Origin: Liolophura sinensis | Lineage: Eukaryota; Mollusca; Polyplacophora; Chitonida; Chitonidae | Length of the DNA: 64,000 bases | Assembly (NCBI RefSeq): GCF_032854445.1 | Contig: NC_088297.1 | Span: forward strand, 5,145,991-5,209,990 | Reading direction: 5' to 3' | Shown here: one piece after another, positions 2,597-53,722 of the stretch | How the letters are laid out: each line of letters starts with the position of its first letter | How positions within the stretch are numbered: position 1 is the stretch's first letter | Translations under genes and position numbers: made by a program | Notes under the pieces: generated by a model | Seen by the model: only the letters and a program-made list of their open reading frames with translations | What the model was told of the DNA's origin: nothing | Database searches by the model: none

Positions 2597-4275
2597 GTCT
2601 AAAATCTCAGCCAATGAATGGTGAACAAACACTTAGTCTGGCAAACTCTAACAAAGAATGGTGAACAAATACTTAGTCTGGCAAACTCTAACAATGAATG
2701 GTGAACAAATACTTAGTCTGGCAAACTCTAACAATGACTGGTGAACAAATACTTAGTCTGGCAAACTCTAACAATGAATGGTGAACAATTACTTAATCTG
2801 GCAAACTCTAACAATGAATGGTGAACAATTACTTAGTCTGGCAAACTCTAACAATGAATGGTGAGCAAATACTTAGCCTGGCAAACTCTAACAATGAATG
2901 GTGAACAATTACTTAGTCTGGCAAACTCTAACAATGAATGGTGAACAATTACTTAATCTGGCAAATTCTAACAATGAATGGTGAACAATTACTTAATCTG
3001 GCAAACTCTAACGATGAATGGTGAACAATTACTTAGTCTGGCAAACTCTAACAATGAGTGGTGAACAAATACTTAGTCTGGCAAACTCTAACAATGAGTG
3101 GTGAACAAATACTTAGTCTGGCAAACTCTAACAATGAATGGTGAACAATTACTTAGTCTGGCAAACTCTAACAATGAGTGGTGAACAAATACTTAGTCCG
3201 GCAAACTCTAACAATGAATGGTGAACAATTACTTAATCTGGCAAACTCTAACAATGAATGGTGAACAAATACTTAATCTGACAAACTCTAACAATGAATG
3301 GTGAACAATTACTTAGTCTGGCAAACTCTAACAATGAATGGTGAACAATTACTTAATCTGGCAAACTCTAACAATGAATGGTGAACAATTACTTAGTCTG
3401 GCAAACTCTAACAATGAATGGTGAACAATTACTTAATCCGGCAAACTCTAACAATGAGTGGTGAACAAATACTTAGTCCGGCAAACTCTAACAATGAATG
3501 GTGAACAATTACTTAGTCTGGCAAACTCTAACAATGAATGGTGAACAATTACTTAGTCTGGCAAACTCTAACAATGAGTGGTGAACAAATACTTAGTCTG
3601 GCAAACTCTAACAATGAATGGTGAACAATTACTTAATCTGGCAAACTCTAACAATGAATGGTGAACAATTACTTAGCCTGGCAAACTCTAACAATGAATG
3701 GTGAACAATTACTTAATCTGGCAAACTCTAACAATGAATGGTGAACAATTACTTAATCCGGCAAACTCTAACAATGAATGGTGAACAATTACTTAGTCTG
3801 GCAAACTCTAACAATGAGTGGTGAACAAATACTTTGTCTGGCAAACTCTAACAATGAATGGTGAACAATTACTTAGTCTGGCAAACTCTAACAATGAATG
3901 GTGAACAATTACTTAATCCGGCAAACTCTAACAATGAATGGTGAACAATTACTTAATCTGGCAAACTCTAACAATGACTGGTGAACAAATACTTAGTATG
4001 GCAAACTCTAACAATGCATGGTGAACAATTACTTAGTTTGGCAAACTCTAACAATGAGTGGTGAACAAATACTTAGTCTGGCAAACTCTAACAATGAATG
4101 GTGAACAATTACTTAATGTGCCATACTCTAACAATGAATGGTGAACAATTACTTAGTCTGGCAAACTCAGCCAATGAACGGTGAACAATTACTTAATCCG
4201 GCAAACTCAGCCAATGAACGGTGAACAATTACTTAATCCGGCAAACTCAGCCAATGAACGGTGAACGAGCCAGCA
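2597..4275. repeat. 40-bp satellite-like tandem array, about 42 copies
   Basis: The unit begins GGCAAACTCTAACAATGAAT and continues GGTGAACAATTACTTAGTCT. From 2641 to about 4260 copies stay in perfect 40-bp register, with substitutions but no insertions or deletions. Recurrent variants (ACAAAT or ACAATT, GAATGG or GAGTGG, AGTCTG, AATCTG or AATCCG) are shared among distant copies, the sign of unequal exchange or conversion. The last three copies switch to CTCAGCCAATGAACGG, which resembles the flanking degenerate monomers. Confidence 0.95.
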
Positions 4276-15146: not shown

Positions 15147-15335
15147 TCACGTCGTCAGCTCATCCAGCTGAGCTTTATTCTTGGCCACCCAATCGTCGAA
15201 TGACAAAGTTCCCTTGTGTAATTTTCTGGTGCCACGGACATCTCGGAATGGCCGACCAAATTTGTAAAAAGCAAACATGGCGGATATTTCTTTGGAGCCT
15301 TTGAAAGTAAAATGACTGTAGTCTTCCAACGTGAT
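15147..15335 (-). CDS. NMRAL1: NMRAL1 coding exon 6 (C-terminus and stop)
   Basis: The acceptor is CTTTTTCCAG. The exon encodes ITLEDYSHFTF through FDDWVAKNKAQLDELTT and stops with TGA at 15147-15149. EDY, MFAFYKFGRP and SFDDWVAKNK match the C-terminal helices of the family. A (TA)n tract and a small MITE begin about 60-115 bp upstream of the acceptor. Confidence 0.95.
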   Translation of the reverse strand: MTLEDYSHFTFKGSKEISAMFAFYKFGRPFRDVRGTRKLHKGTLSFDDWVAKNKAQLDELTT

Positions 15336-15455: not shown

Positions 15456-18400
15456 GGTGTCTCAGAAGTCGTGCACCATCCTGATTTTCATCTTTTGTTT
15501 TCTGTGTTTCAGATTTAATACTGATTTTTTCCCCCTCATTTACAGTTAATTATGGCTAACAAACTAACAGTACAAGAAAGAGTTGAATTGGTTTTTATGT
15601 TTGGAAGAGATGGAACAACACACCACTCTGTAGCTCAAGCATTCAACCTCAACCTGGATGGTGCACGACTTCTGGGACACCCTGCATATGTGTGTATTTA
15701 GATAAGAGCTATAGCCATAGTCCTGGAATTAAATGAGGTCTGCTTTGATGAAACTTCGTAACACCAATTTACAGTAACTTTTTATTTTTGGATATATTGT
15801 TGTCCTGGTTACCATGATATCAGTTGACTTCATTTACTGGAATGTTTACGAGAAATTACTTTACTAATATATACTAAAAATATATACACAAGAAAATCTT
15901 AAGAAAACAAAATTTTATACGGTATCAACACCTAGTATGGCTATAACACATAGGCACGCATAATCATGCTGCTTATTCGAACCGGATCTGTACCACTGCA
16001 ATAATACATGCCTAAATAAAAAACACCGATATTTCAAGGTGATTTCAATGTCGTTTCAGGCGATCTGTCGATGAGTGTTGGCATTCAATGTATGAATGAA
16101 AAAAATAAAAATAAAAAAAAAAACGCTTGCATTTTGCCATCTGTTTCCTTTTCTAGTTTGAATGGTGGGTTGTTTTTTTTTCAGAATGATCTTCGAAGAA
16201 AATGCAGGCGTTTCTTTATCTGAATGTAGCATAATAGTTAACCATCGTTTCTGGCGTTGGGAAAGGAGATTGATTTCTTGTCTTTACCGTAGGGCATTTT
16301 CCAACAGGCCTCTTTTTATGTTTCACTATAATTTATAGTTTTACGTCAGAATATGTTCCACTGTGGAAAAATTATATACACAAGTAGGAAAAAGCTTAAA
16401 ATAAAATAAAGCTTAAAAGTGACCAGGTTCAAAATGACGTCGATGGCTGCGGTTGCTAAGCAGCACTGATAGATACTGATAGAGACAAGCCCTGCATTCG
16501 ATAGTCCAGCATTGCCAACCGTCGTGTTGACGATTTACTCTGATTGAGGTTGGCTGACGTTGGAATCTAGGTTCTTACTGCTATGGTTCTGCTATGGAGT
16601 TAAACTTCAACATTATAGCTCATACCAAAATCATGATATCCTAATTGTGAAGGTCACCATCCTGCTCGCTTTTGATGTCGTGAACGCAGAACAACCTATA
16701 GATGTCATCATTCCAGTACCGTCTCTGGTTATATATTCCTTGACGGCTTTGAACTCTGGGTGGTTGGAAACTGGTGGTTTATTTCGTAAAAAGTTGGCAT
16801 AGAGCCAAATGCGCATCTGTTTTCGTGTCTGAGTATGATGCTATATGTGTGATTTATTTATTTATTTGATTGGTATTTTACGCAAGAGTATTTCACTTAT
16901 ACGACGGTATGCACATGTACACTTGTGTGCATGTGGATGGAACCCATATATGAATGGGTGGATGTGTATACACTGTATGTATATGTATGCGTATATACTT
17001 CGCAAACTCCTTACAGCCGAAGTGCCGCTCTAGCTGAATGTTAGAAAACAATTCTGACTGCGTATGCAAATAAGGCAACGATGACGTCCCAAACGGGCAC
17101 TGTACTATAGTTCTTGAAAAGACTTTGACTTCTTTTTCTTCGGTCATAAGAAACAATGTAACCAATGCGCTCGCTGCGGGTTCAAGTGAATAAATAAATG
17201 GAACATTCTACAATGTATCACGATTGCATAGGGTACCTGGGGATCACAAAAGACCTTAGGTGCCATGTGCTTGTTGAGGACGTGCACGTATTCCTGTACG
17301 GTCAGCTGATCTCCGCTCAGAGGCACGATCTTCCGGCGAAACACCTCTGCTTTCTTGAAGATCTTGTGCACACATTTGCCAATATCCTCCACAGCAATTC
17401 CGTGCAAGGGGACGTCACCCATTGGATATGCTGGTAAATATAGTTCCAGGTTGATATAGGTTGACTGATTAGTACATTAAATGCATGAATTCAGCTATAC
17501 AACCAAACAGATAGTAAACATGATTAATTTTATTATATATGATGAAAACACAGCATTGAGAATAGTTCTAAACCTGTCACGTCTAATAAACTGTAATTAA
17601 TATTCTTTTGCATATTTTAACCTAATTCTGCGTAAGATAAAGCTTTATGCTGATCCAACTCACCTATGGCAAAATGGCCGTCCCGCAGTTTGTGGGGTTT
17701 TATCATTGACAACAGATTGTCAAAAAAGTAAGGCAATCTGATAACCGTGTAGTTAATTTCTGTACAAATGGAAAAAAAATCGCTAAGTTCAAGCATCTTA
17801 TAAGTTGTGTTCATGTTCAACATCTCAACTCATTTAAATAATCCGAAGTTTATTATTAAAGCGGAAGAATGCGTGAAAATGAAGTACATGTAAGCACCAA
17901 TAGAAAGGCCAGTGCAGACCTTAGCTAAAATACTTTCACTTTCGTTTTCACTGAATGAAATCAGTTGTTTTGTTTGTAAGTTGGGCTTTCGGACGAAATG
18001 TCATCATATGTCTCCCGCTTTTTCCTGACCCTTATGTAAGTATTAAATTTCAGGTATTTGCATTTTTATCGCACACGCACACATTATACATGAGTAAAGT
18101 TCACAAGACTTGGACTCAGACATGAATATAGAGGGCGTAGTAAACTCTGTGTGACGTCATTAGCGACATACTTTATCAATTTGGTAAAAAGATCTCGTTT
18201 TGCAAATTGTTGACAGCATTTGATTCAGTTTTTCAGGTAAAGATTTCAATAACCTTACGACTGGTACAAAATGAAAGTTACCTGGTCTTTTCCTTTAAAG
18301 AAGACCTTCAAAAAAATAAAGGAAAAGGTACTGGATATTATAAAACAAAGAGTATTTTATATTCATATTTTATATTTCTTAATACCCTCTCTCTTTTATA

Positions 18401-21400
18401 CGTATTTGTTTTCTCAATGTTCGGTAATATTCGGAAATGTCGTCATCGATGGAAAAACACCGGGAGCGCAGGACCAGCATATATCGCTCCCAATTCGAGC
18501 TCTCTCCGCAACAGTGCTGACGTACCCACAGCTACTAAATTTCCGCTGATTCTGAGGGAAAAAGTAGCTTAAAGCCATTTCTACACCCCTGCATGAGAAG
18601 CTTTTTTGTAGTTTTATACGTTAGGCCACATTCTAAACCATATGAAGAAACAAAAAAAAGAGTGTACCCTTTATTCCGTAAACGTCCACAATGTATAACG
18701 GTAAAAATAATTACACATGGGGACAGGTCAAAACTTTTTTGAAAAATCATGATTCCGTTCATCAGCTGCCTTTTTTGCTCCAAAGCCCTGGGGTGAGAGA
18801 GTTTTCCGTAAACACGTGCATTGGAGAAGTAATACCTCAGTACGCAGATCAGGGATTTCAATTCAGGACAGCCTTCCATTCACCAAATATATGCAGTGTA
18901 CTTTCTAAAGTGTACTACATCAAAATGTATTTTCCAAAGCGTTTTCCTCAAAATGTATTTTCCAAAGCGTTTTGTCCAAAATGTATTTTCAAAGCGTTTC
19001 CCTCAAAATGTATTTTCCAAAGCGTTTTCCTCAAAATGTTTTTCCAAAGCGTTTTCTCCAAAATGTATTTTCAAAGCGTTTTCCTCAAAATGTGATTTCC
19101 AAAGCGTTTTTTCTCAAAATGTATTTTGCAAAGCGCATGTATTTCCCAACATTCATTTACCAAAATCTGTTCCCAAAATGTAATTCCTGAAGTGCATTTC
19201 TTTGCTTGGTTTTTTGGACAGAATACAGGCTCCCTGTGCATGCATTCACAAAGTTTTTAAACTGTATTTCCCAAAATGTATTTCCTGAAGTGTATTTATT
19301 TGCTTGTTATCCTTTTTTGGACAGGACAGGCTCCTGTGCATGCATTCACAAAGTGTAAAATGTGTTTCCCAAAACGTATTTCATGAAGTGTATTTCCCTA
19401 AACTATATTTCTTTACCTGGTTTCTTCTTTTTGAGGTATTCTTCGACTCTTCTTTTCGAATCGAACGGGTCACAACATTTGTCAATAACTGCCTTGGGGC
19501 TCTCTTGTCCGCTGTAGAGGATGTGCTGGACCCCACAGGCTATGGCACAGTCCACGGCGTTCTTACCCTGGGCGATTAAAGGATTAAAGGAGAAAAAAAG
19601 CAAAAATTACGTAAGCATCAGTATTTATTTATTTATTTGATTGGTGTTTCACGCCGTACTCAAGAATATTTCACTTATACGACGGCGCCCAGCATTATGG
19701 TGGGAGGAAACAGGGCAGAGCCCCGGGGGAAACCCAGGACCATCCGCAGGTTGCTTGCAGACCTTCCCACTTCGTAAGCATCAGTAGAAAGATCATTAAA
19801 AATTATATCTGAAAATACATATAGCTTCACCTTAAGAGTCAAATGTATTGAATGTATATATTCAATATATGCTATATTGGCCATTGGCCAGTGAGGTCAG
19901 AGCGACTTTTCTCTTGCAAAAAACAGGTATTTAATTTTAGGTTGGCTTTTTCCTGCAAAGGAACAAAAGTTTACAAAAGGGACAAAGTTTGCAAGAATTT
20001 TACCATAAAGCCTAACTTAAAAATCCACGCACGACTGCATTTAATTCGTGCAGTGTAAAACACATATATATAAAGCCATATGTATAACGGTATATTCGAG
20101 ATACAGATTTAGGGTAATTCTCTTTCTTCTTCTAAATGACGTCGAATACATTTCAGTCAACGTTTTTTACTAAATTCTGCTTAAGGTTATAAGTGGCTAT
20201 GCTAGTTAAGCATTTGTATAAAGCCCTCTACCTGACGTAAATTGATAAGAGGCCAGATTTCACCTGTAATATGTTCGACCATTCGCATATGCCAACTATC
20301 ACACTGTCGCCGATTCTCTGGTTTTATTGTGCATGAATTTGTCCTTTATATTTCTACTATAATTCATTCTTAAGAAGGTGAACATGTCGATACACCTGCG
20401 ATTTTGGCAAAAAATCCATAATCGCTTAACAAATGAAATATTCAGTTATTTACCAGGAATAGCTCAAATTATTGCCTTTCAATAAATACTCCCATCTGCA
20501 AAGTGTCGAAATGATTCTAGAGTTTGAAAAGATATGAATATATCCGCTTTATAAATGTTAGGTACTTCATTGCCAGCACTGCATGAAAGAGCCGTGGAAA
20601 TCCATCCTGCAGCAAGAAGGCACATAACACGGACGTGCACTCTAAGGATTCCTTCGTCGTCATATGACTGAAAAATTGTCAAGTACGACGTTAAACCCCA
20701 AGCACTCACTCACCCACTCACTCGAATAGATACGCCCTGCGAGCTTTGCTAGAAATATGCGGTATAGCCCAACTCTTTAATGAAGCGTGAAAATACATGC
20801 AAGACGCAACGCACCCAAAATCATGTTACTTTCACCGGCGTGTATGTAGGGAACAAAATTAACAGAAAGGTTATAGTGGCCAAACGAGGAAGTTTCCATT
20901 ACCCCATGGGTTGTAGGCTACTTTGTTCTTTTCCTTGCTTTCAGCTGTAACACCCTTTCGCGATAAAGAATTAATTATCCAAAGATGTAAATATAACATT
21001 CGACAAATCCTGACGACAGTATGAAGCAAAGTTAACTTACCTGTTGGGAGTCTCTTATGATATCGAAATGGTCCCAGTAGCTCGTAACGATGAAACAGCC
21101 ATATGCTCCTTTCAACAACTCCATTAATGATTCTGTATCTTCCAAATCACCTTCGACAATGGCATACCCTGTAGAGTAATAAAATGTCGGTCAAATCGAC
21201 CATTAGTGATTCTGTATCTTCCAAATCACCTTCGACAATGGCATACCCTGTAGAGTAATAAAATGTCGGTCAAATCGACCATTAATGATTCTGTATCTTC
21301 CAAGTCACCTTCGACAATGGCATACCCTGTAGAGTAATAAAATGTCGGTCAAATCGACCATTAATGATTCTGTATCTTCCAAGTCACCTTCGACAATGGC

Positions 21401-23710
21401 ATACCCTGTAGAGTAATAAAATATCGGTCAAATCGACCATTAATGATTCTGTATCTTCCAAGTCACCTTCGACAATGGCATACCCTGTAGAGTAATAAAA
21501 TGTCGGTCAAATCGACCATTAATAATTCTCTACCTTCCAAATCACCTTCGACAATGGCATAACCTGTAGAGTAATAAAATGTCGGTCAAATCGACCATTA
21601 ATGATTCTCTATCTTCCAAATCACCTTCGACAATGGCAAACCCTGTAGAGTAATAAAATGTCGGTCAAATCGACCATTAATGATTCTCTATCTTCCAAAT
21701 CACCTTCGACAATGGCTTACCCTGTAGAGTAATAAAATGTCGGTCAAATCGACCATTAATGATTCTGTATCTTCCAAGTCACCTTCGACAATGGCATACC
21801 CTGTAGAGTAATAAAATATCGGTCAAATCGACCATTAATGATTCTGTATCTTCCAAGTCACCTTCGACAATGGCATACCCTGTAGAGTAATAAAATGTCG
21901 GTCAAATCGACCATTAATAATTCTCTACCTTCCAAATCACCTTCGACAATGGCATAACCTGTAGAGTAATAAAATGTCGGTCAAATCGACCATTAATGAT
22001 TCTCTATCTTCCAAATCACCTTCGACAATGGCAAACCCTGTAGAGTAATAAAATGTCGGTCAAATCGACCATTAATGATTCTGTATCTTCCAAATCACCT
22101 TCGACAATGGCTTACCCTGTAGAGTAATAAAATGTCGGTCAAATCGACCATTAATGATTCTGTATCTTCTAAATCACCTTCGACAATGGCATACCCTGTA
22201 GAGTAATAAAATGTCGGTCAAATCGACCATTAATGATTCTGTATCTTCTAAATCACCTTCGACAATGGCATACCCTGTAGAGTAATAAAATGTCGGTCAA
22301 ATCGACCATTAATGATTCTCTATCTTCCAAATCACCTTCGACAATGGCATACCCTGTAGAGTAATAAAATGCCGGTCAAATCGACCATTAATGATTCTCT
22401 ATCTTCCAAATCACCTTCGATAATGGCATACCCTGTAGAGTAATAAAATATCGGTCAAATCGAGCATTATTGTTCTGTGGGACAAAGGTGACAGTACGGC
22501 CTGTACAACGTTTTACCAAATTTTCGTCCTCTACCGCGGTGACCCATATACCCATTACGCATGTGACGACAGGGGAAGGGTTGGGGGAGGAGTTGTGGGG
22601 GGGGGGGGGGGGGGGTTAGCACCTGGTTCGAACGACTTAGCCAGCAAACCGTTAACAATTTTTACAAGAAAACAAAAAAATTATAAAGAACTAAAATTTG
22701 TCACAGCCAATTATAGTTTTGGTCACTAGAAAACGCATAAAACGCACGTACGACTTCCGGCTACCACGGCTTCCGGGGGCTAAGCGGCCCCTGAACCTCC
22801 ATTACTGGACCGGGATATATATGGTATTTCCACTACTTTCATCCCCTACCACAAATCAAGTGTCACTCTGTCGCCTCTGAACGTTTGCTAGCCTGGTGAG
22901 TCGTGTGTGGAGCTCAAACAATAGCATTTTTTCTTGCTGAAAAGCGTCCAGAACGCCTCTCCAGCCCTATAGGATCTCCAAACTTGCCAGTATCAACCTC
23001 TTCTCCTGCCTTCTTCTTTGCCATAGGTTCATATACTTTGACGACTTTCTTCCGTTTTCAGCACGGCAGTTGTTCACAAAACAGCCTGATTTAAATTTGG
23101 TCATCGCGAATGGAAAAGACTGCATCATTCATTCCAAATTATCCAGTCACATTCTTTGTTTAAACCCAAATTAAGGGAATATCTCCTCAACCAAACCATT
23201 TGAAACTAATACTTGATATGTACTGGAAAGACAATTTACTTCACACTTTCGAAAATGTGCACTATGCTATTCAGCACTATTGTCTATTGATATACCAATA
23301 TTTCAATGGGATAGAACACATCCATTGGACTTTATTCCGGCCATCTTTGTACTTAAAATCAACACTTACTCGTTGTCTTGTTGTCTTCTAATTTATGGCG
23401 AATAAACAAACAAACTTCCGGGAACTTACAATATTATAGTCAACAAATGATCACACGTCACCAGTGAAATCCGGCCTCTTGTCAATATGCCTTAGTTAGG
23501 GCCTTATTCCAAATCTTCATGTATATTTTATAACCTACCTTCTTTTTTCAACTCCATAGCTTGGGCGCTGAAACCGTTCCTCGCCACGCCGACCGCCAGG
23601 AACGTCCGGTCCATAGCCAAGGCCCTCAAGACAGAACCCCCCTGACGCCCAGTGGCCCCGAACACCACCACCCTCTTCCTCCTGCCCTCTTTAGACGCTC
23701 CACAGCCCAT
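15147..23710 (-). CDS. NMRAL1: NmrA-like family domain-containing protein 1 (NADPH sensor), six coding exons, complete
   Basis: The family (vertebrate HSCARG/NMRAL1) has an atypical short-chain-dehydrogenase Rossmann fold that binds NADP(H) and senses cellular redox state. Coding exons, in transcript order, are 23710-23539, 21168-21041, 19567-19417, 17759-17664, 17430-17237 and 15335-15147. All have AG/GT borders and matching phases (1,0,1,1,0), giving 309 aa against 299 in human. Residues 14-17 (VVVF) precede the dinucleotide loop GATGRQG at 18-24. An arginine in VARN (R44) aligns with the human NADPH-binding arginine. FIVTSYWD and the C-terminal MFAFYKFGRPFRD also match the family. The chosen start has an A at -3 and a G at +4; an in-frame ATG 14 codons upstream (23752) is possible. 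With the downstream start the protein begins MGCGASK, a candidate N-myristoylation signal. Intron 1 holds the 79-bp acceptor array. Confidence 0.95.
15395..15452. repeat. (TA)n microsatellite, about 58 bp
   Basis: An uninterrupted TA dinucleotide run lies in the last NMRAL1 intron, immediately beside a MITE whose family targets TA. Confidence 0.98.
15451..15688 (+). mobile_element. MITE of the Tc1/mariner/IS630 type carrying a transposase N-terminus relic
   Basis: The ends are inverted repeats of about 29 bp with one mismatch: CAGGGTGTCTCAGAAGTCGT plus GCACCATCC on the left, and the complement of CAGGGTGTCCCAGAAGTCGT plus GCACCATCC on the right. Flanking TA bases fit the TA target of this superfamily. 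Inside, from 15553, a frame starts MANKLTVQERVELVFMFGRD and continues with SVAQAFNLN, resembling the helix-turn-helix start of such transposases. The rest of a transposase is absent. It is an internal-deletion derivative needing a transposase in trans. Confidence 0.85.
15860..16850. other. Part of NMRAL1 intron 5, nothing recognised
   Basis: AT-rich intronic sequence with poly-A/T tracts. An 80-codon frame at 16560-16802 has no recognisable similarity. Confidence 0.5.
16855..16915 (-). mobile_element. 3' fragment of the tRNA-headed SINE
   Basis: ATTTATTTATTTGATTGG, AGAGTATTTCACTTATACGA and CGGTATGCAC represent the tail and 3' module of the SINE with an internal deletion. It lies in NMRAL1 intron 5. 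Confidence 0.85.
17237..17430 (-). CDS. NMRAL1: NMRAL1 coding exon 5
   Basis: The acceptor is ATTTACCAG. The exon encodes AYPMGDVPLHGIAVEDIGK followed by a segment ending KHMAPKVFCDPQ, and ends CCCAG|GTACCC in phase 0. PMGDVPLHGIAVEDIG aligns with PTGDVPMDGMSVSDLG of human NMRAL1. The intron to exon 4 is only 233 bp. Confidence 0.95.
17548..17640 (+). repeat. Dispersed repeat, family R1, copy 2 (fragment)
   Basis: It contains AACACAGCATTGAGAATAG, CACGTCTAATAAACTGTAAT and ACCTAATTCTGCGTAAG in the same order as the copy at 6290-6530. It abuts NMRAL1 exon 4. Confidence 0.6.
17664..17759 (-). CDS. NMRAL1: NMRAL1 coding exon 4
   Basis: The acceptor is TTTGTACAG. The exon encodes EINYTVIRLPYFFDNLLSMI and KPHKLRDGHFAIG, ending CCATAG|GTGAGT. 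The exon is 96 bp with symmetric phase 1, so it could be skipped without a frameshift. The LPYFFDNLL segment aligns with LPCYFENLL of the human protein. Confidence 0.95.
18425..18580 (+). repeat. Dispersed repeat, family R3, copy 2
   Basis: AATATTCGGAAATGTCGTC, GCTCCCAATTCGAGCTCTCT and TAGCTTAAAGCCA match the copy at 13432-13610 in order. It lies in NMRAL1 intron 3 (between exons 3 and 4). Confidence 0.55.
18905..19145. repeat. 28-29-bp tandem repeat, about 8 copies
   Basis: The unit CAAAATGTATTTTCCAAAGC followed by GTTTTCCT repeats with small indels. Related words (AAATGTATTTCCTGAAGTG) continue as far as 19410, right up to NMRAL1 exon 3. Three overlapping plus-strand frames here are repeat translations. 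Confidence 0.9.
19417..19567 (-). CDS. NMRAL1: NMRAL1 coding exon 3
   Basis: It begins GGTAAGAACGCC after the acceptor CGCCCAG and ends AAACCAG|GTAAAG in phase 1. It encodes GKNAVDCAIACGVQHILYSG (aligning with the human segment ending in YVVYSG) and a lysine-rich EEYLKKKKPG. A SINE with target-site duplication sits 43 bp upstream of its acceptor (see 19624-19772). Confidence 0.95.
19624..19772 (-). mobile_element. 5'-truncated SINE with 14-bp target-site duplication, beside NMRAL1 exon 3
   Basis: The conserved 3' module is intact, but the tRNA head is missing. Identical flanks CGTAAGCATCAGTA at 19610-19623 and 19773-19786 define the insertion. On the gene's strand the element lies upstream of the exon 3 acceptor, and the flanking duplication comes within 43 bp of it. 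Confidence 0.95.
20150..20335 (+). repeat. Dispersed repeat, family R1, copy 3
   Basis: CTAAATTCTGCTTAAGG, GACGTAAATTGATAAGAGGC, TTTCACCTGTAATATG and TCTCTGGTTTTATTG follow the order of the copy at 6290-6530. It lies in NMRAL1 intron 2. Confidence 0.6.
20565..20725 (+). mobile_element. Second SINE family with (ACTC)n tail, 5'-truncated
   Basis: It contains AGCCGTGGAAATCCATCCTG, ATGACTGAAAAATTGTC and ACGACGTTAAACCCCAAGCA, then ACTCACTCACCCACTCACTC. The same 3' sequence and tail end the longer copy at 56785-57064. It lies in NMRAL1 intron 2. Confidence 0.8.
21041..21168 (-). CDS. NMRAL1: NMRAL1 coding exon 2 (its 5' part was amplified into the adjacent array)
   Basis: The acceptor is ACTCTACAG and the exon encodes YAIVEGDLEDTESLMELL and GAYGCFIVTSYWDHF, ending CAACAG|GTAAGT in phase 0. 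The first 47-48 bases of this exon together with 31-32 bases of upstream intron form the 79-bp unit that is repeated 16 more times upstream (21200-22475). Only this copy continues into the full exon and its donor. Confidence 0.95.
21121..22477 (-). repeat. 79-bp tandem array built from an NMRAL1 splice acceptor and exon start, 17 acceptor copies
   Basis: On the minus strand each unit reads ATTTTATTACTCTACAG, then the exon words GGTATGCCATTGTCGAAGG and TGATTTGGAAGATACAGAAT, then CATTAATGGTCGATTTGACC. Acceptor positions run from 21168 to 22432 in steps of exactly 79 bp (16 intervals), with no indels. The lowest copy (21121-21168) is part of the real exon 2. Copies 4-8 and 9-13 carry the same sequence of five variants, so a 395-bp block was itself duplicated. 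The right end decays at about 22477. Since 79 is not a multiple of 3, reading from an upstream acceptor into the next copy meets a TGA. Confidence 0.97.
22480..23538. other. Distal part of NMRAL1 intron 1
   Basis: A G-run near 22597-22614 is the only low-complexity feature. Short frames here (for example 22698-22880 and 22903-23094) show no recognisable similarity. No further exon with matching phase was seen. Confidence 0.5.
23539..23710 (-). CDS. NMRAL1: NMRAL1 coding exon 1 (dinucleotide-binding loop)
   Basis: It encodes residues 1-57 plus one base: the N-terminal MGCGASK, a basic stretch GRRKR, the first beta strand VVVF and the GATGRQGG loop. It ends AAAGAAG|GTAGGT in phase 1. The exon is GC-rich compared with flanking DNA. 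The start could alternatively be the in-frame ATG at 23752, which has a weaker initiation context. Confidence 0.93.
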
Positions 23711-23752
23711 TTCAATGTCACTCAGACAGACGTACCCTTCATCAGACTGCAT

Positions 23753-28934: not shown

Positions 28935-29850
28935 TACACAGTTCCACAAAGCACACGTAACTACCATGGCGAGGCTATCTGTCAATAGTACTTGTTCCAG
29001 TTCCACAAAGCGCACGTAACTACCATGCCGAGGCAAGTCTACAGTACTAGATTCAGTTCCACAAAGCACACGTAACTACGAAAGCGAGGCTATCTGTCAA
29101 TAGTACTTGGTCCAGTTCCACAAAGCGCACGTAACTACCATGGCGAGGCAAGTCTACAGTACTAGATTCAGTTCCACAAAGCACACGTAACTACGAAAGC
29201 GAGGCTATCTGTCAATAGTACTTGGTCCAGTTCCACAAAGCACACGTAACTACCATGGCGAGGCAATGTCTACAGTACTAGATCCAGTTCCACAAAGCAC
29301 ACGTTACTACCATGGCGAGGCAATGTCTACAGCACTAGATCCAGTTCCACAAAGCACACATAACTACCATGCCGAGGCAATGTCTACAGTACTTGGACCA
29401 GTTCCACAAAACAGGCGTAGCCACCAAAGCGAAGCTATCTGTTAACAGTACTTGGTCCAATTCCACAAAGCACACGTAACTACCATGGCGAGGCTATCTG
29501 TCAATAGTACTTGTTCCAGTTCCACAAAGCGCACGTAACTACCATGCCGAGGCAAGTCTACAGTACTAGATCCAGTTCCACAAAGCACACGTAACTACCA
29601 TGCCGAGGCAATGTCTACAGTACTTGGACCAGTTCCACAACACAGGCGTAGCCACCAAAGCGAGGCTATCTGTTAATAGTACTTGGTCCAATTCCACAAA
29701 GCACACGTAACTACCGTGGCGAGGCAATGTCTACAGTACTAGATCCAGTTCCACAAAGCACCCGTAACTACCATGGCGAGGCAATGTCTACAGTACTTGA
29801 CCCAGTTCCCAACAGTAAAGGTGACATTGTCGAGGCAATGTCTATATACA
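28935..29850. repeat. Two-type minisatellite, units of about 56-59 bp, about 15 copies
   Basis: All units start AGTTCCACAAAGC and contain ACGTAACTAC. Type A continues CATGGCGAGGCAATGTCTAC and AGTACTAGATCC. Type B continues GAAAGCGAGGCTATCTGTC and AATAGTACTTGGTCC. Types alternate in a partly regular order. It lies about 100 bp upstream of coding exon 1 of the membrane-protein gene, probably within its 5' intron. Confidence 0.93.
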
Positions 29851-30959: not shown

Positions 30960-31779
30960 CTCTGTGTAAACAACTAACTATTACGCATAGTTCGTTGATT
31001 AAGACAGCTTCTGAAACGACTCGTCCTCAACGCGAAAACATACTTGATGTTAAAGCAAAGTCAACACGACGTCCTCTGTGTCACGCTGTGGTAACGTGAC
31101 GTGGCCAGCATTATGACGTTTCGAACATCGCTCTCGGCAATCATCGCTAGCGCCCGGTGAGTCCGAGACAATACTTGAGTATTTTGTAACGTTGTTTTTA
31201 AGTGACGTCATGTAGACCGAATGATCATGGTCAAGTGGCGTAAGTGCTAGTATCGATAGGAACAGCTGTATGCTGCCGAAAGCGCATGTTACATTAGTTT
31301 GGTATGCACTTATAAAGGTGAAAACGTGTACGTAGCAGGTCAGAAAGATATTTAGTTACTTACCAAAGGCCAGTGGTTTACTCCAGTCAGACAAGCCCCT
31401 ATACATCATGCATTACCCTGATCACCGTTATAAAGAGACATAATAATTACAGCGTTAAATACCAATTAATCAATGAGTAAATTATTTAATTTAGCGTTAC
31501 TGAAAATTCAGATATCATACTTCCACTTCCACCCCAAATTCCTGCCTTGCCATCAACACCCGCAAATCATTCATTCCGATGTACGCAAAGTGTCATAAAA
31601 TGCATCAAAAATAGAGCGCGCATCGGAGAAAAACTCAATTGTCAAGGGGAATAACTCTTGAGTGACAACGAACGACATTTACATACGCGGTTGTCTTTCC
31701 TGTTTCGCCGTAAATTCCCGATGATATTTCTTTACGTTCGTCCATTTCCGAGCACTTCCGGATACACCTCACAAGAAAG
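30960..31779. promoter_or_regulatory. Candidate divergent promoter region of the membrane-protein and clathrin light chain genes
   Basis: The two genes point away from each other here. On the minus strand two strong donors occur (CAGAG|GTAAGT ending at 30960, and TTTG|GTAAGT near 31373), suitable for a noncoding 5' exon of the membrane-protein gene. The 31050-31160 part is CpG-rich and includes GTGACGT. On the plus side an ETS-type site CACTTCCGG lies at 31753-31761, about 20 bp before the clathrin light chain ATG. The transcription starts are unknown and the shared-promoter reading is inference. Confidence 0.45.
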
Positions 31780-31930
31780 ATGGCTGACCTTAGTGAATTT
31801 GAGAGCGCTGAGCAACCCCAAGCCCCAACAGAAGATGACCCAGCCGCCGCTTTTCTGGCCAGAGAGCAGGATCAGTTGGCGGAGTTAGAAGGGGACAGTT
31901 TGGGGGCCGACAGTTCGCAGCCACCTGCAG
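31780..31930 (+). CDS. CLTA/CLTB-like: Clathrin light chain exon 1 (conserved N-terminal consensus)
   Basis: The ATG has a strong context (AAAGATGG). The exon encodes MADLSEFESAEQPQAPTEDD followed by PAAAFLAREQDQLAELEG, and ends CTGCAG|GTAACA in phase 1. The acidic TEDD patch just before PAAAFL corresponds to the regulatory acidic residues of vertebrate light chains. Confidence 0.96.
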
Positions 31931-34900
31931 GTAACAGGGTCTATTCGAGTTCACATGTCGGTGCCTGTTGAAATGCAGTGGCATCGGCGTGGATTCGTGG
32001 GTGGGGGCGTGTGGCATCGACAAAGCTGGTTGATTTCACCGATTAGCTCCAAAATTAAGTCAGATTTCACTAAAATTAGAAGCTATTGTGCTTTATTTGC
32101 ACATTTTATCTTCCGGGAAGACCTTCAGGATTGTAACTGTGAAAGAAATGGTAAAAGCCATTGGTAATAGACCTGATAAATTATGAAGTTATGGTGGATT
32201 GATTATGACAGATTGTTTATCGATCTCTGGTGGCCACAATAAAGTGGCCATCACCCCCTGTGATGTGGTCAGTTTTCTGTCTCGCTAGATTAGTCAGAAT
32301 TGAGTAATTTTGTTTAACTTTTAACTTTAGCCTCTCATTATCATATGATATTGTAGCTCTGCAAACATCTGTCTTAATTTCTCTGTCTTATTTTACTCCT
32401 AGTCCGCAAACTGAGCATGTTTCGCTATCTTTTGTTGAAGGCCAAATTTGTAATGTGTCAGTGATGTTATTGAGGTTTGTATGATCTTAACATTTCTCAA
32501 ACAGAGTCAGTATCTGTTAATATTTTGATTGCAAAATTTTAGAAAAAGCTTGTTAATAGAGCTTTATCATAAATGGCTTGCATAAATTACACCTGATTGT
32601 TGTTTTTTCAGATGATGGATTTGATCCCTTCGGTGCCGAGGCAGGGCCAGCTGAATCATCCGAGGACATTTTTGGGGACGGAGCTCAGGAACCTCAGGTC
32701 AGTTACTGATTGATGGAAGACCATCACCATGGCAACTGTCATGAGATTGAGGCTTTTGTAGCCCCAACTCCTTTTCTTATATTGGCCTAGCGTCGTTGGA
32801 GTCTCAACACTAACAGTATTAATTTCTTACTCAACAAAGGACCAGGCAGATCCCCGTTGTTATCGAACAAGTCTTGTGCAAATAAAGACACCAACCTAAA
32901 GACCTGCTTTCTACACCCACTGCACCTGCACGATAGGTCCCTGCTCGCTCTAGAATAGATTTATCATAGCCTTGAAGGCTTTCATGGCACACTCTCCTTG
33001 GCCCTGGCAGCCATGTTCCTAGTGCTCCATTATAAAGCAGGACATGCATGTAGCTGCTCAACATGGCATCCACGGCCGAGGAAGCCTTCATGGCTATAAT
33101 AAATCTATTCTAAAGCGAGTAGGGACATATAGTGGCGATTGGGGGGGGGGGGGGGGGGGTGCCGAAAGCAGGTCTTTAAGTTGGTGTCTTTTATTTGCAC
33201 AAGAGTTGTTTGATGACAAAGAGAATCGGCTTGGACCTTCATTGAGAAAGAAATTAATACTGTTAGCATTGAGGCTCCAACGACATTAGGCCAGGATAAG
33301 AAAAGGAGTTGGAGTCCTCCGGGGCTAGGGCTTCTGTTTTGTTTTTCACTGAACACGTTGAATATTTTGTTTGCTAAAGCACTTTGCTGTTAAGTGTAAA
33401 GAATACGTTTTGCAGATATTGTAACATCGTTTGCTTGTAAAGTTGCCTTGTAGGATCACTAAGTTTTTCAGTTTGATAGAGGCACAGATTATTGAATTGA
33501 TTAACCTAAAGCAAATTCTGTTTATTCGTTTTTTCCCCTGCCAACTCTCGTAATATTCTTGTAACAACTGAACCGTGACATATGACATCAGCACTGCACT
33601 GCAACCTGTGTTTATGTTCCCAGGCCGAGTTGCTTGTTCCCTGTGTGGTTTTGTCTTGTCTTTGACCAGCACCTGTGTGTTTTTTCCCCATGCATGTACC
33701 AACATGAGATTTATCAGCCAGTGACTTACAAGGTGTTATTATACAAGATTGGGAACATGGGTTTTTATATTGTTCAGCGTCAGTATCATCATCACTACAT
33801 GTGGTTTGAGGGGCCTCCGTGGCTCAGTAGGTTAGCGCGCTAGCGCAGCGTAATGACCCAGGAGTATCTCACCAATGCGGTCGCTGTAAGTTCAAGTCCA
33901 GCTCATGCTGGCTTCGTCTCCAGCCGTACGTGGGAAGGTCTGCCAGCAACCTGCGGATGGTTGTGGGTTTCCCCTGGACTCTGCTCGGTTTCCACCCACC
34001 ATAATGCTGGCCGTCGTCGTATAAGTGAAATATTCTTGAGTACAGCGTAAAACACCAATCAAATAAATAAGTAAATAACATGTGGTTTGCTTGTCACATA
34101 TTCTTCGCAAACAAAGAGCTGAACAAAATGGCAAATCACGTCAACTCAGCTACAAAAAATTGTTAGCATTTTAACGAGCAACTTTCAGAGCATTTCATGC
34201 ACATTTAAAATTTTTTTTTTTGGAGACAAAGGTACATTGGCTGAATTGGGCTTCACAAACAGTATAATTTTATCCGTCTACACAGACATGACACGATAAT
34301 GCCTTCAGAATATGCTAGAGTAAATGCCTTGCCAGCATGCAAAAAGGTTGGAGAATTAAAGTAGCATAATAACATATGGATACATAATTTACATAATCCA
34401 ATACCAAAACATGCACAATGTGTTTATAGCAGCCCCCAGCTGAAAAAAAGCTTGAAATTCAATTATTTGTATAATGACCCTCTTTGTCTGTGTACATTTC
34501 GCATTTTGGATGATGGTATTGGGGGGTAGATTAGATAAGTAGATGCAAGTGTCCCAAACAGATGAGCAGTTAGTTGTACGTGTGTTGTCCAGCAAATCCT
34601 TACCCCCTCTGTAGCCCGAGGTCCCGCTTCATGCTAGCCACCCCCTCCCGGTATTAGAAAATGTGCCACCACCACATCCGATGTCCAGCTGTCTTTTGGC
34701 CTCACAGGGAGTATTAGGAAGTGCAGCCCCTGATAGGAGTTTGACTTTTCTCACAAATCAATCCGTACTGTTTATTAGTTAGATTTTTTCATTGGAATAT
34801 GATGCTCTCTATACATATTCTTCAAGCTAACTATTAATCTTAACATAAAATAGAAAGTCACTGAGACTTTGGTGTCTGTGTCTTGTTCTCTTACACTGTA

Positions 34901-37900
34901 GTTGAAAATTATAGCAAGCTAGAGCAGATATTTGTGATTTTTGACCAAATGAAACTTGCCATGTGTCACATACATCTATTATTTGTTTTCCTCATAAAAT
35001 CTGTTATGTTCAAGTGAAAATGTATAAAAATGGCTAAATATTTCCCAGTTCACAAGTCCTGCTCTGTCGCGATGTATCCCCTGTTAAGTTTTGAGGTTAT
35101 GTCTCTGTGTTGCTTAATTAACTTACATGGGAAGGCCCATTGTGATATCTGCCATGAAATAGTTTACATTTAAGTCCAAGGTTTGGTTGATTACCCCAAA
35201 TTGTCCATTCCCTCTTTCTGCTACATTCCTATCATTCAATATCAAAACACTTTCAGGTTTACTGTATATCTTCATGTTGCTTGAATATGAACTGAATAAG
35301 TCTTCCTAAGTAAAACATAAAAAAAAACTGTGATTGTCTCTTTTTGTTACTCACAACATATGACAAAAGATCATTCAATATCAAAACACTTTCAGGTTTA
35401 CTGTATATCTTCATGTTGCTTGAATATGCACTGAATAAGTCTTCCTAAGTAAAATATAAAAAAAAACTGTGATTGTCTCTTTTTGTTACTCACAACACTG
35501 TGGTGAAATTCAGTTATTCTCTTTTACGACATCCCCATGGCCTGTGTTTTATACCAACGTGCTGCTTGAATTACCTAGCCGAGTAAATCCCTCAAAACCA
35601 TAAAACATGATGTCTCAGATAAGGCTGTTCTATCCACCCCCTCCTCGCTACCTCGATATCATCAGCTTTTCTTGACTTAATCAGGATGGCTTGAAGAACT
35701 TTCTTAGACCAGAAAAAATGTGATAATCCAATAACATCGTCCAGAATACAGTTTCTGCCAAGCCCTATGTTCCTACTTTCCCTTCATCAGGATCCTTTGT
35801 GACATTATTAAGGGGAGTTAATCCATGTGTTACTTGAATGTTTGAAGACTGACAGCTCATGACTCAAGTTACCTACATTGTCTGTCACCAATATGTGTGT
35901 CTCCATGCTGCTGCTGGCATGATTTCAGACTCTAGGTGGTGGTGGCAGCGGCGTCCTGCTCGATGGGTTTGGCGACAGTTCTGCAACCGATTTGTTAGGC
36001 AACCCTGCTGGTGGTGAACCGATGGGTGACAGCTTTGGTGTCCCTAATGACACTCTTGTGAGATTTGTGTGTTTACATCTAGCTTCTTCCTGCTTTTATA
36101 CACCTTTGATCACACGTGGACACTGTCATAAGCAATAAAAATGGTATATTTTCTATTTGAACAGTTTGAAAAGAAATTTACCGTAAAAATGATTGATTAC
36201 AGTTATTATATTTATCGTGGCGAGGATTACAGTGACTAGTTGTGACACCTGCTCATTTATATCCTCAACCACATTCCAGATTAAGAAGCACACCATCCCG
36301 AACATCAACTTCCCGCAGAGTGACCTAAAATATGTGTGATGTAACACGCTGACCCAAATGTTGTACGACAGTGTACAATACTGACCCAAATGTTGTACGA
36401 CAGTGTACAATACTGACCCAAATGTTGTACGACAGTGTACAATACTGACCCAAATGAATCAAACTACTTGTACGACAATGTACAATACTGACCCAAATGA
36501 ATCAAACTACTTGTACAACAGTGTATAATACTGACCCAAATGTTGTACGACAATGCACAATACTGACCCAAATGAATCAAACTACATGTACGACAATGTA
36601 CAATACTGACCCAAATGAATCAAACTACATGTGCGACAGTGTACAATACTGACCCAAATGAATCAAACTACTTGTACGACAGTGTACAATACTGACCCAA
36701 ATGAATCAAACTACATGTACAACAGTGTATAATACTGACCCAAATGTTGTACGACAATGTACAATACTGACCCAAATGAATCAAACTACTTGTACGACAG
36801 TGTACAATACTGACCCAAATGAATCAAACTGCATGTACGACAGTGTACAATACTGACCCAAATGAATCAAACTACTTGTACGACAATGCACAATACTGAC
36901 CCAAATAAAGCAAACTACATGTACGACAGTGTACAATACTGACCCAAATGAATCAAACTACATGTACGACAGTGTACAATACTGACTCAAATGAAGCAAA
37001 CTACATGTACGACAGTGTACAATACTGACCCAAATGAATCAAACCCAGTAATCCCTGCTTCAGGCTTCATGCAAGATCAGCTTCAGTGAAATAAACAAAT
37101 AAATAATTCATGCAAGATCATGGTTACAGGAATCAGTTTGAGAATCTGTAGATGAAATGTTTTAAGAGTACACGTACAGATATACACTTTCTTTGCTGTT
37201 GCAGCGTAAGTGAGATAGTACTGACAAGGAAAATTGACATGTAATGTATTGTGAAAGATACATGTAGTATTGACAAGGAAAATTTACATGTAATGTGTTG
37301 TGAAAGATAGTATTGACTAGGAAAATTTACATGTAATGTATTGTGAAAGATACATGTAGTATTGACAAGAAAAATTTACATGTAATGTGTTGTGAAAGAT
37401 AGTACTGACAAGGAAAATTTACATGTAATGTATTGTGAAAGATACATGTAGTATTGACAAGGAAAATTTACATGTCGTGTTGTGAAAGATAGTATTGACA
37501 AGGAAAATTTACATGTAATGTATTGTGAAAGATACATGTAGTATTGACAAGGAAAATTTACATGTAATGTGTTGTGAAAGATAGTATTGACTAGGAAAAT
37601 TTACATGTAATGTATTGTGAAAGATACATGAAGTATTGACAAGGAAAATTTACATGTAATGTATTGTGAAAGATACATGTAGTATTGACAAGGAAAATTT
37701 ACATGTAATGTGTTGTGAAAGATAGTACTGACAAGGAAAATTTACATGTAATGTATTGTGAAAGATAGCATTGACAAGGAAAATTTACATGTAATGTATT
37801 GTGAAAGATACCTGTAGTATTGACAAGGAAAATTTACATATGGTGTATTGTGAAAATGGCTTCAGGAGCCAGTTGTTAAAAACATTTACCGAATGGGATG

Positions 37901-53149: not shown

Positions 53150-53722
53150 TGCTACATTAGCAGGAAATCAAGGCTACATAAGCAGGAAACCAAGGCTACG
53201 TTAGCAGGAAATCAAGGCTATGTTAGCAGGAAATCAAGGCTACTTTAACAGGAAACCAAGGCTACATTAGCAGGAAATCAAGGCTACATTAACAGGAAAC
53301 CAAGGCTACATTAGCAGGAAACCAAGGCTACATTAGCAGGAAATCAAGGATAGATTAGCAGGAAATCAAGGCTACATTAGCGGGAAATCAAGCAGGAAAT
53401 CAAGGCAATATTAGCAGGATATCAAGGCTACATACGCAGGAAACCAAGGCTACATTAGCAGGAAATCAAGGCTACATAAGCAGGAAACCAAGGCTACATT
53501 AACAGGAAACCAAGGCTACATTAGCAGGAAACCAAGGCTACATTAGCAGGAAATCAAGGCTACATTAATGGGAAATCAAGGCTACATTAGCAGGAAATCA
53601 TGGCTACATTAGCAGGAAACCAAGGCTACATTAGCAGGAAACCAAAGCTACATTAGCAGGAAACCAAGGCTACATTAGCAGGAAATCAAGGCTATATTAG
53701 CAGGAAATCAAGGCTACCATAA
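53150..53722. repeat. 22-bp tandem repeat, about 26 copies
   Basis: The unit is ACATTAGCAGGAAATCAAGG plus CT, with a common variant GAAACC. A few copies carry small deletions near 53390. Confidence 0.96.

Follow-up and report, generated by a model that had tools for sequence, protein, structure and literature searches.

How does a gene accommodate an intron that ends in a tandem series of seventeen 3' splice sites, each joined to the start of the same exon? This question is raised by a locus of the chiton Liolophura sinensis, analysed here within a stretch of 64,000 nucleotides (the window; RefSeq assembly GCF_032854445.1, contig NC_088297.1, positions 5,145,991 to 5,209,990). An earlier note on this DNA had assigned the locus to NMRAL1, and had suggested that copy number might tune the output of the gene or that the array might be tolerated through a strong preference for one acceptor.

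The array straddles the intron 1/exon 2 boundary

The array and the exons of the reconstructed gene (positioned by visual inspection of open frames and GT/AG borders) are as follows:

21121..22463, minus strand: tandem array of 17 head-to-tail units of 79 bp (TRF, string search and unit comparison)
23539..23710, minus strand: coding part of exon 1, from MGCGAS (open frame; donor AAG/GTAGGT)
21041..21168, minus strand: exon 2, 128 nt, its first 48 nt being the exonic part of unit 1 (donor CAG/GTAAGT)
19417..19567, minus strand: exon 3, 151 nt (reconstructed frame)
17664..17759, minus strand: exon 4, 96 nt (reconstructed frame)
17237..17430, minus strand: exon 5, 194 nt (reconstructed frame)
15147..15335, minus strand: exon 6 to the stop codon, 189 nt (reconstructed frame)

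TRF reported the array at 21121-22478 (1.36 kb), with a period of 79, 17.2 copies, 96% matches, 0% indels and a score of 2485, and the 17-base acceptor string, sought across the whole window, occurs 17 times, with each of the 16 spacings exactly 79 bp. On the minus strand, where all the acceptors lie, the exonic part of each unit begins at 21168 + 79k. Read in that sense, a unit comprises 31 intronic bases ending ...ttattactctacag, which are the end of intron 1 with its pyrimidine-rich tract and CAG, followed by the 48 bases that begin exon 2; the intronic part also holds a TTGAC that we take to be branch-like. Judged on the reconstructed gene, the repeat units span the intron 1/exon 2 boundary, and the splice signal itself is repeated, as 17/17 units agree at every one of the final 17 intron bases, AG included. 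Downstream of exonic position 48 the units part company: unit 1 reads ..AATGGAGTT, whereas the others, the decoys, read ..AATGGTCGA. The earlier description of an acceptor plus exon start recurring in 79-bp steps without indels was thereby confirmed, as was, on the reconstructed gene, the position of 16 decoy acceptors upstream of the one adjoining the unique exon. The copies had also been called exact, which holds for their period but not for their sequence, since 12 of the 79 columns vary and 11 distinct unit sequences occur among the 17.

The host is an NMRAL1-family gene

The six exons join into an intact open frame of 930 nt, encoding 309 aa, and the 16 extra units account for 1264 nt of the 2370 nt of intron 1. 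The NmrA family of Pfam (PF05368) covers residues 11-272 of the protein (E 8.5e-41), and its best match in the PDB is the structure of human HSCARG/NMRAL1 (2exx; E 3.6e-56, residues 11-304). The NmrA-like domain thus spans most of the protein, and by the Pfam and PDB matches together the gene belongs to the NMRAL1/HSCARG family, as the earlier note had supposed. The host differs in having an MGC-type N-terminus, the match to the human chain starting only at residue 11, after the MGC part; N-termini of this type also occur in Pomacea (MGCGAS) and Capitella (MGCKQS) proteins, and the motif is a possible myristoylation site. An in-frame ATG lies 42 nt further upstream (23711-23752, minus strand) and adds 14 residues, MQSDEGYVCLSDIE, ahead of MGCGAS. 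Because the database relative P0122 carries a similar extension, MQSSESFVSLSDIK, at that place, the true start may be this ATG, and the protein may begin 14 residues earlier with the MGC motif inside the chain.

P0122 keeps exon 1 (49/59 aa) and a further database relative, P0121, keeps exon 6 (59/63 aa), on account of which the gene looks maintained. P0121 starts with intron-like residues ahead of exon 6 and P0122 stops at the exon 1 border, so that both appear to be genomic in origin. The exon 6 counterpart of P0121 runs 73 residues beyond the place of the stop codon in the window (15147-15335, minus strand). The main protein search, which admitted proteins between 0.55 and 1.75 times as long as the query and for which 120 of 327 matches were listed, gave as its best listed match P0001, labelled Liolophura sinensis and 44% identical, which is probably a paralogue of the host gene from the same assembly. 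Two further protein searches gave one match each, and neither a near-identical protein across the exon 1-2 junction nor a decoy product was present among the matches listed. In a tree of the window protein and 23 of the 120 listed relatives the protein groups with Pomacea (support 92/87), although this places the gene only loosely because both sit on long branches.

One acceptor of seventeen preserves the reading frame

Translation of all 17 choices of acceptor showed that the 309-aa frame remains intact through to exon 6 from unit 1 alone. Each of the decoys (units 2-17), when read through to exon 2, is prematurely stopped (16/16), and this upholds the earlier prediction that a 79-nt shift would turn every such choice into a nonsense message. 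The TGA that was expected in the next unit is encountered by 14 decoys, whose messages stop after 90 residues; it is not the stop used by units 8 and 13, in which the first complete exonic codon has changed from TAT to TAA, so that the message ends immediately, after 58 residues. The single base change responsible (21721 and 22116, minus strand) also creates a donor-like AGG/GTAAGC one base past the acceptor. Between the decoy stops and the exon 2/3 junction downstream of them lie 106-1291 nt, and by the 50-55-nt rule for nonsense-mediated decay all of the decoy messages should be targets, their stops being at least 106 nt from the junction.

What might single out unit 1 cannot be the strength of its acceptor, because the core is identical in all units. 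Unit 1 alone continues into the rest of exon 2, reaching after 128 nt a donor that scores 8.80 with a donor scoring matrix. No other GT between 21030 and 23545, and none of the other four donors of the gene (exon 1 scores 6.13), scores as high with this matrix, the best within the array being the AGG/GTAAGC of units 8 and 13 at 4.80. Since it is by this downstream context that unit 1 differs from the decoys, exon definition is the mechanism we would favour. On its own, exon definition need not exclude units 2 and 3, since the exons beginning at their acceptors would be just 207 and 286 nt long.

Turnover within the array and its probable origin

Ten of the 12 variable columns are exonic (10/48) and two intronic (2/31). 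Variation is organised in a higher-order repeat:

21358..22147, minus strand: block of 5 x 79 bp present twice, units 4-8 versus units 9-13 (unit comparison)

The paired units of the block have 0, 0, 0, 0 and 1 mismatches, units 14 and 15 are identical, and unit 17 differs from every other unit by 3-5 bases, all of which attest to turnover within the cluster. The ten exonic variable sites comprise 4 synonymous, 5 missense and 1 nonsense, out of 30, 104 and 10 possible changes; this split is, if anything, richer in synonymous changes, although ten sites make no strong test of neutrality, and across them we saw no clear sign of coding constraint on the exonic parts of the decoys. The lower variation of the intronic part leans toward constraint on the acceptor, a difference that is not significant (Fisher p 0.11).

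At the upstream junction a short stretch resembles the end of the unit:

22465..22478, minus strand: intronic stretch of 14 bases, separated by a single base from the distal unit and aligning with 15 bases of the unit end

The match has one gap and one mismatch, and when the 16-base junction stretch was shuffled 20,000 times, 14 of the shuffles did as well at this register. It is the probable site of the founding duplication, or else the end of a decayed unit. Decayed units extending the array further were rejected. Shuffling the flanks gave matches to the unit as good as the real one in 50 of 300 cases upstream (300 nt) and in 79 of 300 downstream (251 nt), so that the flanks do not exceed chance except in the bases of the upstream junction.

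A tolerated minisatellite as the preferred explanation

We consider it likely, with a probability of roughly three in four, that the array is a mirage-type minisatellite, a kind known from lancelets in which an intron-exon boundary is tandemly duplicated (PMC3087553, PMC3902484), and that it has grown by slippage or unequal exchange and is tolerated through splicing to unit 1 and decay of the decoy messages. The founding event, the splice choice and the decay are steps that we infer, whereas the array, the reconstructed gene structure, the frame outcomes and the block repeat can be read directly from the sequence. In the simplest account a 79-bp segment across the intron 1/exon 2 boundary would have been duplicated between a pair of short imperfect repeats spaced by 79 bp. 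The array may then have expanded to 17 units by slippage or unequal exchange, modes that the copying of the five-unit block suggests, leaving the 16 upstream units as what would now be part of intron 1. In most transcripts exon 1 would be spliced to the unit 1 acceptor by exon definition, because only unit 1 precedes the unique remainder of exon 2 and, 128 nt on, the best donor. Messages from the upstream acceptors would carry an early stop and would probably be removed by nonsense-mediated decay. Tolerance of the array presumably follows from this preference for the one acceptor that leads into the unique part of exon 2.

It is improbable, in our judgement, that the array works instead as a splice rheostat or microexon reservoir whose decoys draw a measurable share of splicing. 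If it did, a length-variable minisatellite would set the amount or form of the NMRAL1-like protein in each animal (NMRAL1 is a redox sensor in humans), and the decoy share would yield nonsense messages in proportion to copy number, or in-frame GYAIVE insertions. A copy-number rheostat, in which a steady share of splicing is lost to nonsense-yielding decoys and allele length sets the output of the gene, would draw on the 17-base core common to 16/16 decoys and on stops placed well upstream of the exon 2/3 junction, and it accords with the length changes described for lancelet mirages (PMC3087553). Even choice among 16 equal decoys, however, should forfeit most of the output, and lancelet mirages reportedly do not interfere with regular splicing, as RT-PCR on the globins suggests (PMC3087553, PMC3902484), so that this form of the idea seems unlikely. 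Insertion of microexons is a more speculative variant. All 17 units carry a donor-like sequence 18 nt past the acceptor (AAG/GTGATT in 12, AAG/GTGACT in 5). Its scores, 4.56 or 3.88 with the same matrix, are close to the 4.27 of the exon 3 donor and exceed the 0.14 of the donor of exon 5. The 18-nt exon that a decoy would contribute is in frame and, for 14/16, open, adding GYAIVE or a one-residue variant to a frame of 315 aa; that a cryptic donor in each unit would make in-frame microexons of these 14 decoys is a new point. The units might on this basis be a store of GYAIVE-like hexapeptides or a nascent intron, an intermediate of intron gain. But 18-nt exons splice poorly as a rule, the donor-like bases belong to the coding sequence of exon 2 and are present in unit 1 too, and use of unit 2 would leave an intron of only 61 nt. 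Even with the intron-gain model proposed for the lancelet globins (PMC3087553) as a precedent, we regard such use as very doubtful.

Two further readings concern the sequence and the gene themselves. An array inflated in assembly, or absent from the animal, has a parallel in a lancelet globin mirage that was apparently misassembled in a genome draft (PMC3087553), and the HiFi coverage behind the assembly, published under the name Liolophura japonica, is 14x (PMC11068029). The HiFi reads nevertheless average 8,347 bp by the same source, far longer than the 1.36-kb array, which makes assembly error unlikely, and in a genome search that scored the best candidates the locus matched at one place; we therefore think an artefact scarcely credible. 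The genome searched has 609,464,459 bases in 632 contigs and the published assembly 609,495,693 bp in 632 scaffolds (PMC11068029), Liolophura japonica and Liolophura sinensis being separate taxa in the taxonomy. The same paper names RNA-seq samples from digestive gland, foot, gill and other sources (SAMN35319765-SAMN35319769). That the host is a decaying gene copy whose first intron no longer matters would fit the lack of a near-identical protein among the database matches listed and the diverged relative P0001 (44%), probably encoded in the same assembly. Six exons with GT/AG borders in one open frame, together with the counterparts of exons 1 and 6 in P0122 and P0121, speak against decay, and we hold this to be a slim prospect.

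Genomic setting

Tandem arrays detected by TRF make up 17.4% of the window, against 12.0% of 200 kb sampled as 20 preset 10-kb stretches of the same genome. Such arrays are thus ordinary here, and what stands out is the straddling of an exon boundary, an overlap examined for this array alone. Other large minisatellites were found by TRF at 2612-4266, 28939-29809, 36349-37855 and 53151-53717. A search with a SINE-like dispersed repeat of about 150 bp at 19600-19800 gave 24 matches across the 64 kb of the window. One is the query, and the remaining 23 share 67-96% identity with it over 43-153 bp. The frame at 31714-31971 (plus strand; DPAAAFLAREQ...) resembles the N-terminus of clathrin light chain. 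Pfam gave no match for this frame, nor for any of four window frames other than that of the host gene. When all three plus-strand frames from 31.6 to 41.5 kb were scanned with Pfam, the sole match fell below the cut-off, and Rfam had no match over the window at gathering thresholds.

Comparison with the mirages of lancelets

The earlier note knew of no described case exactly like this one, a view that does not survive comparison with the mirage minisatellites of lancelets, which show the same arrangement (PMC3087553). These have been described in the globin genes BflGb6/BflGb9 and in Adh3, the latter known to us via PMC3087553, with troponin C and PGBD5 added by PMC3902484. The chiton array has the structure of a mirage: like BflGb6, it duplicates the 3' end of an intron together with the 5' part of exon 2 (PMC3087553), and, as in the lancelet clusters, AG signals are present in many units and the units are homogenised within the cluster (PMC3087553, PMC3902484). 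It differs in dimensions, BflGb6 having 6 and 3 units of 150-160 bp on two haplotypes versus 17 units of 79 bp (PMC3087553), and in its host, a mollusc rather than a cephalochordate, where it is known from one assembly sequence. In the model of Rogers (cited in PMC3087553) introns are gained through duplicated segments bearing AG and GT; the chiton unit likewise has an acceptor followed at 18 nt by a donor-like sequence, although we saw no sign in the array of any unit pair being used as a new intron.

What is new is therefore a mollusc instance, with 17 units, of a kind already known from lancelets. All of the mirages found in our literature search, which was thin on subscription journals, are from lancelets; that it turned up the same arrangement nowhere else does not imply that none is in print. 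In lancelets they have been proposed as raw material for new introns, and the 17-unit mollusc case suggests that mirages can arise in other minisatellite-rich genomes. The array also provides a natural test of 3' splice-site choice, in which 17 acceptors share one 17-base core and differ in position and downstream context, and public RNA reads of this species exist (PMC11068029).
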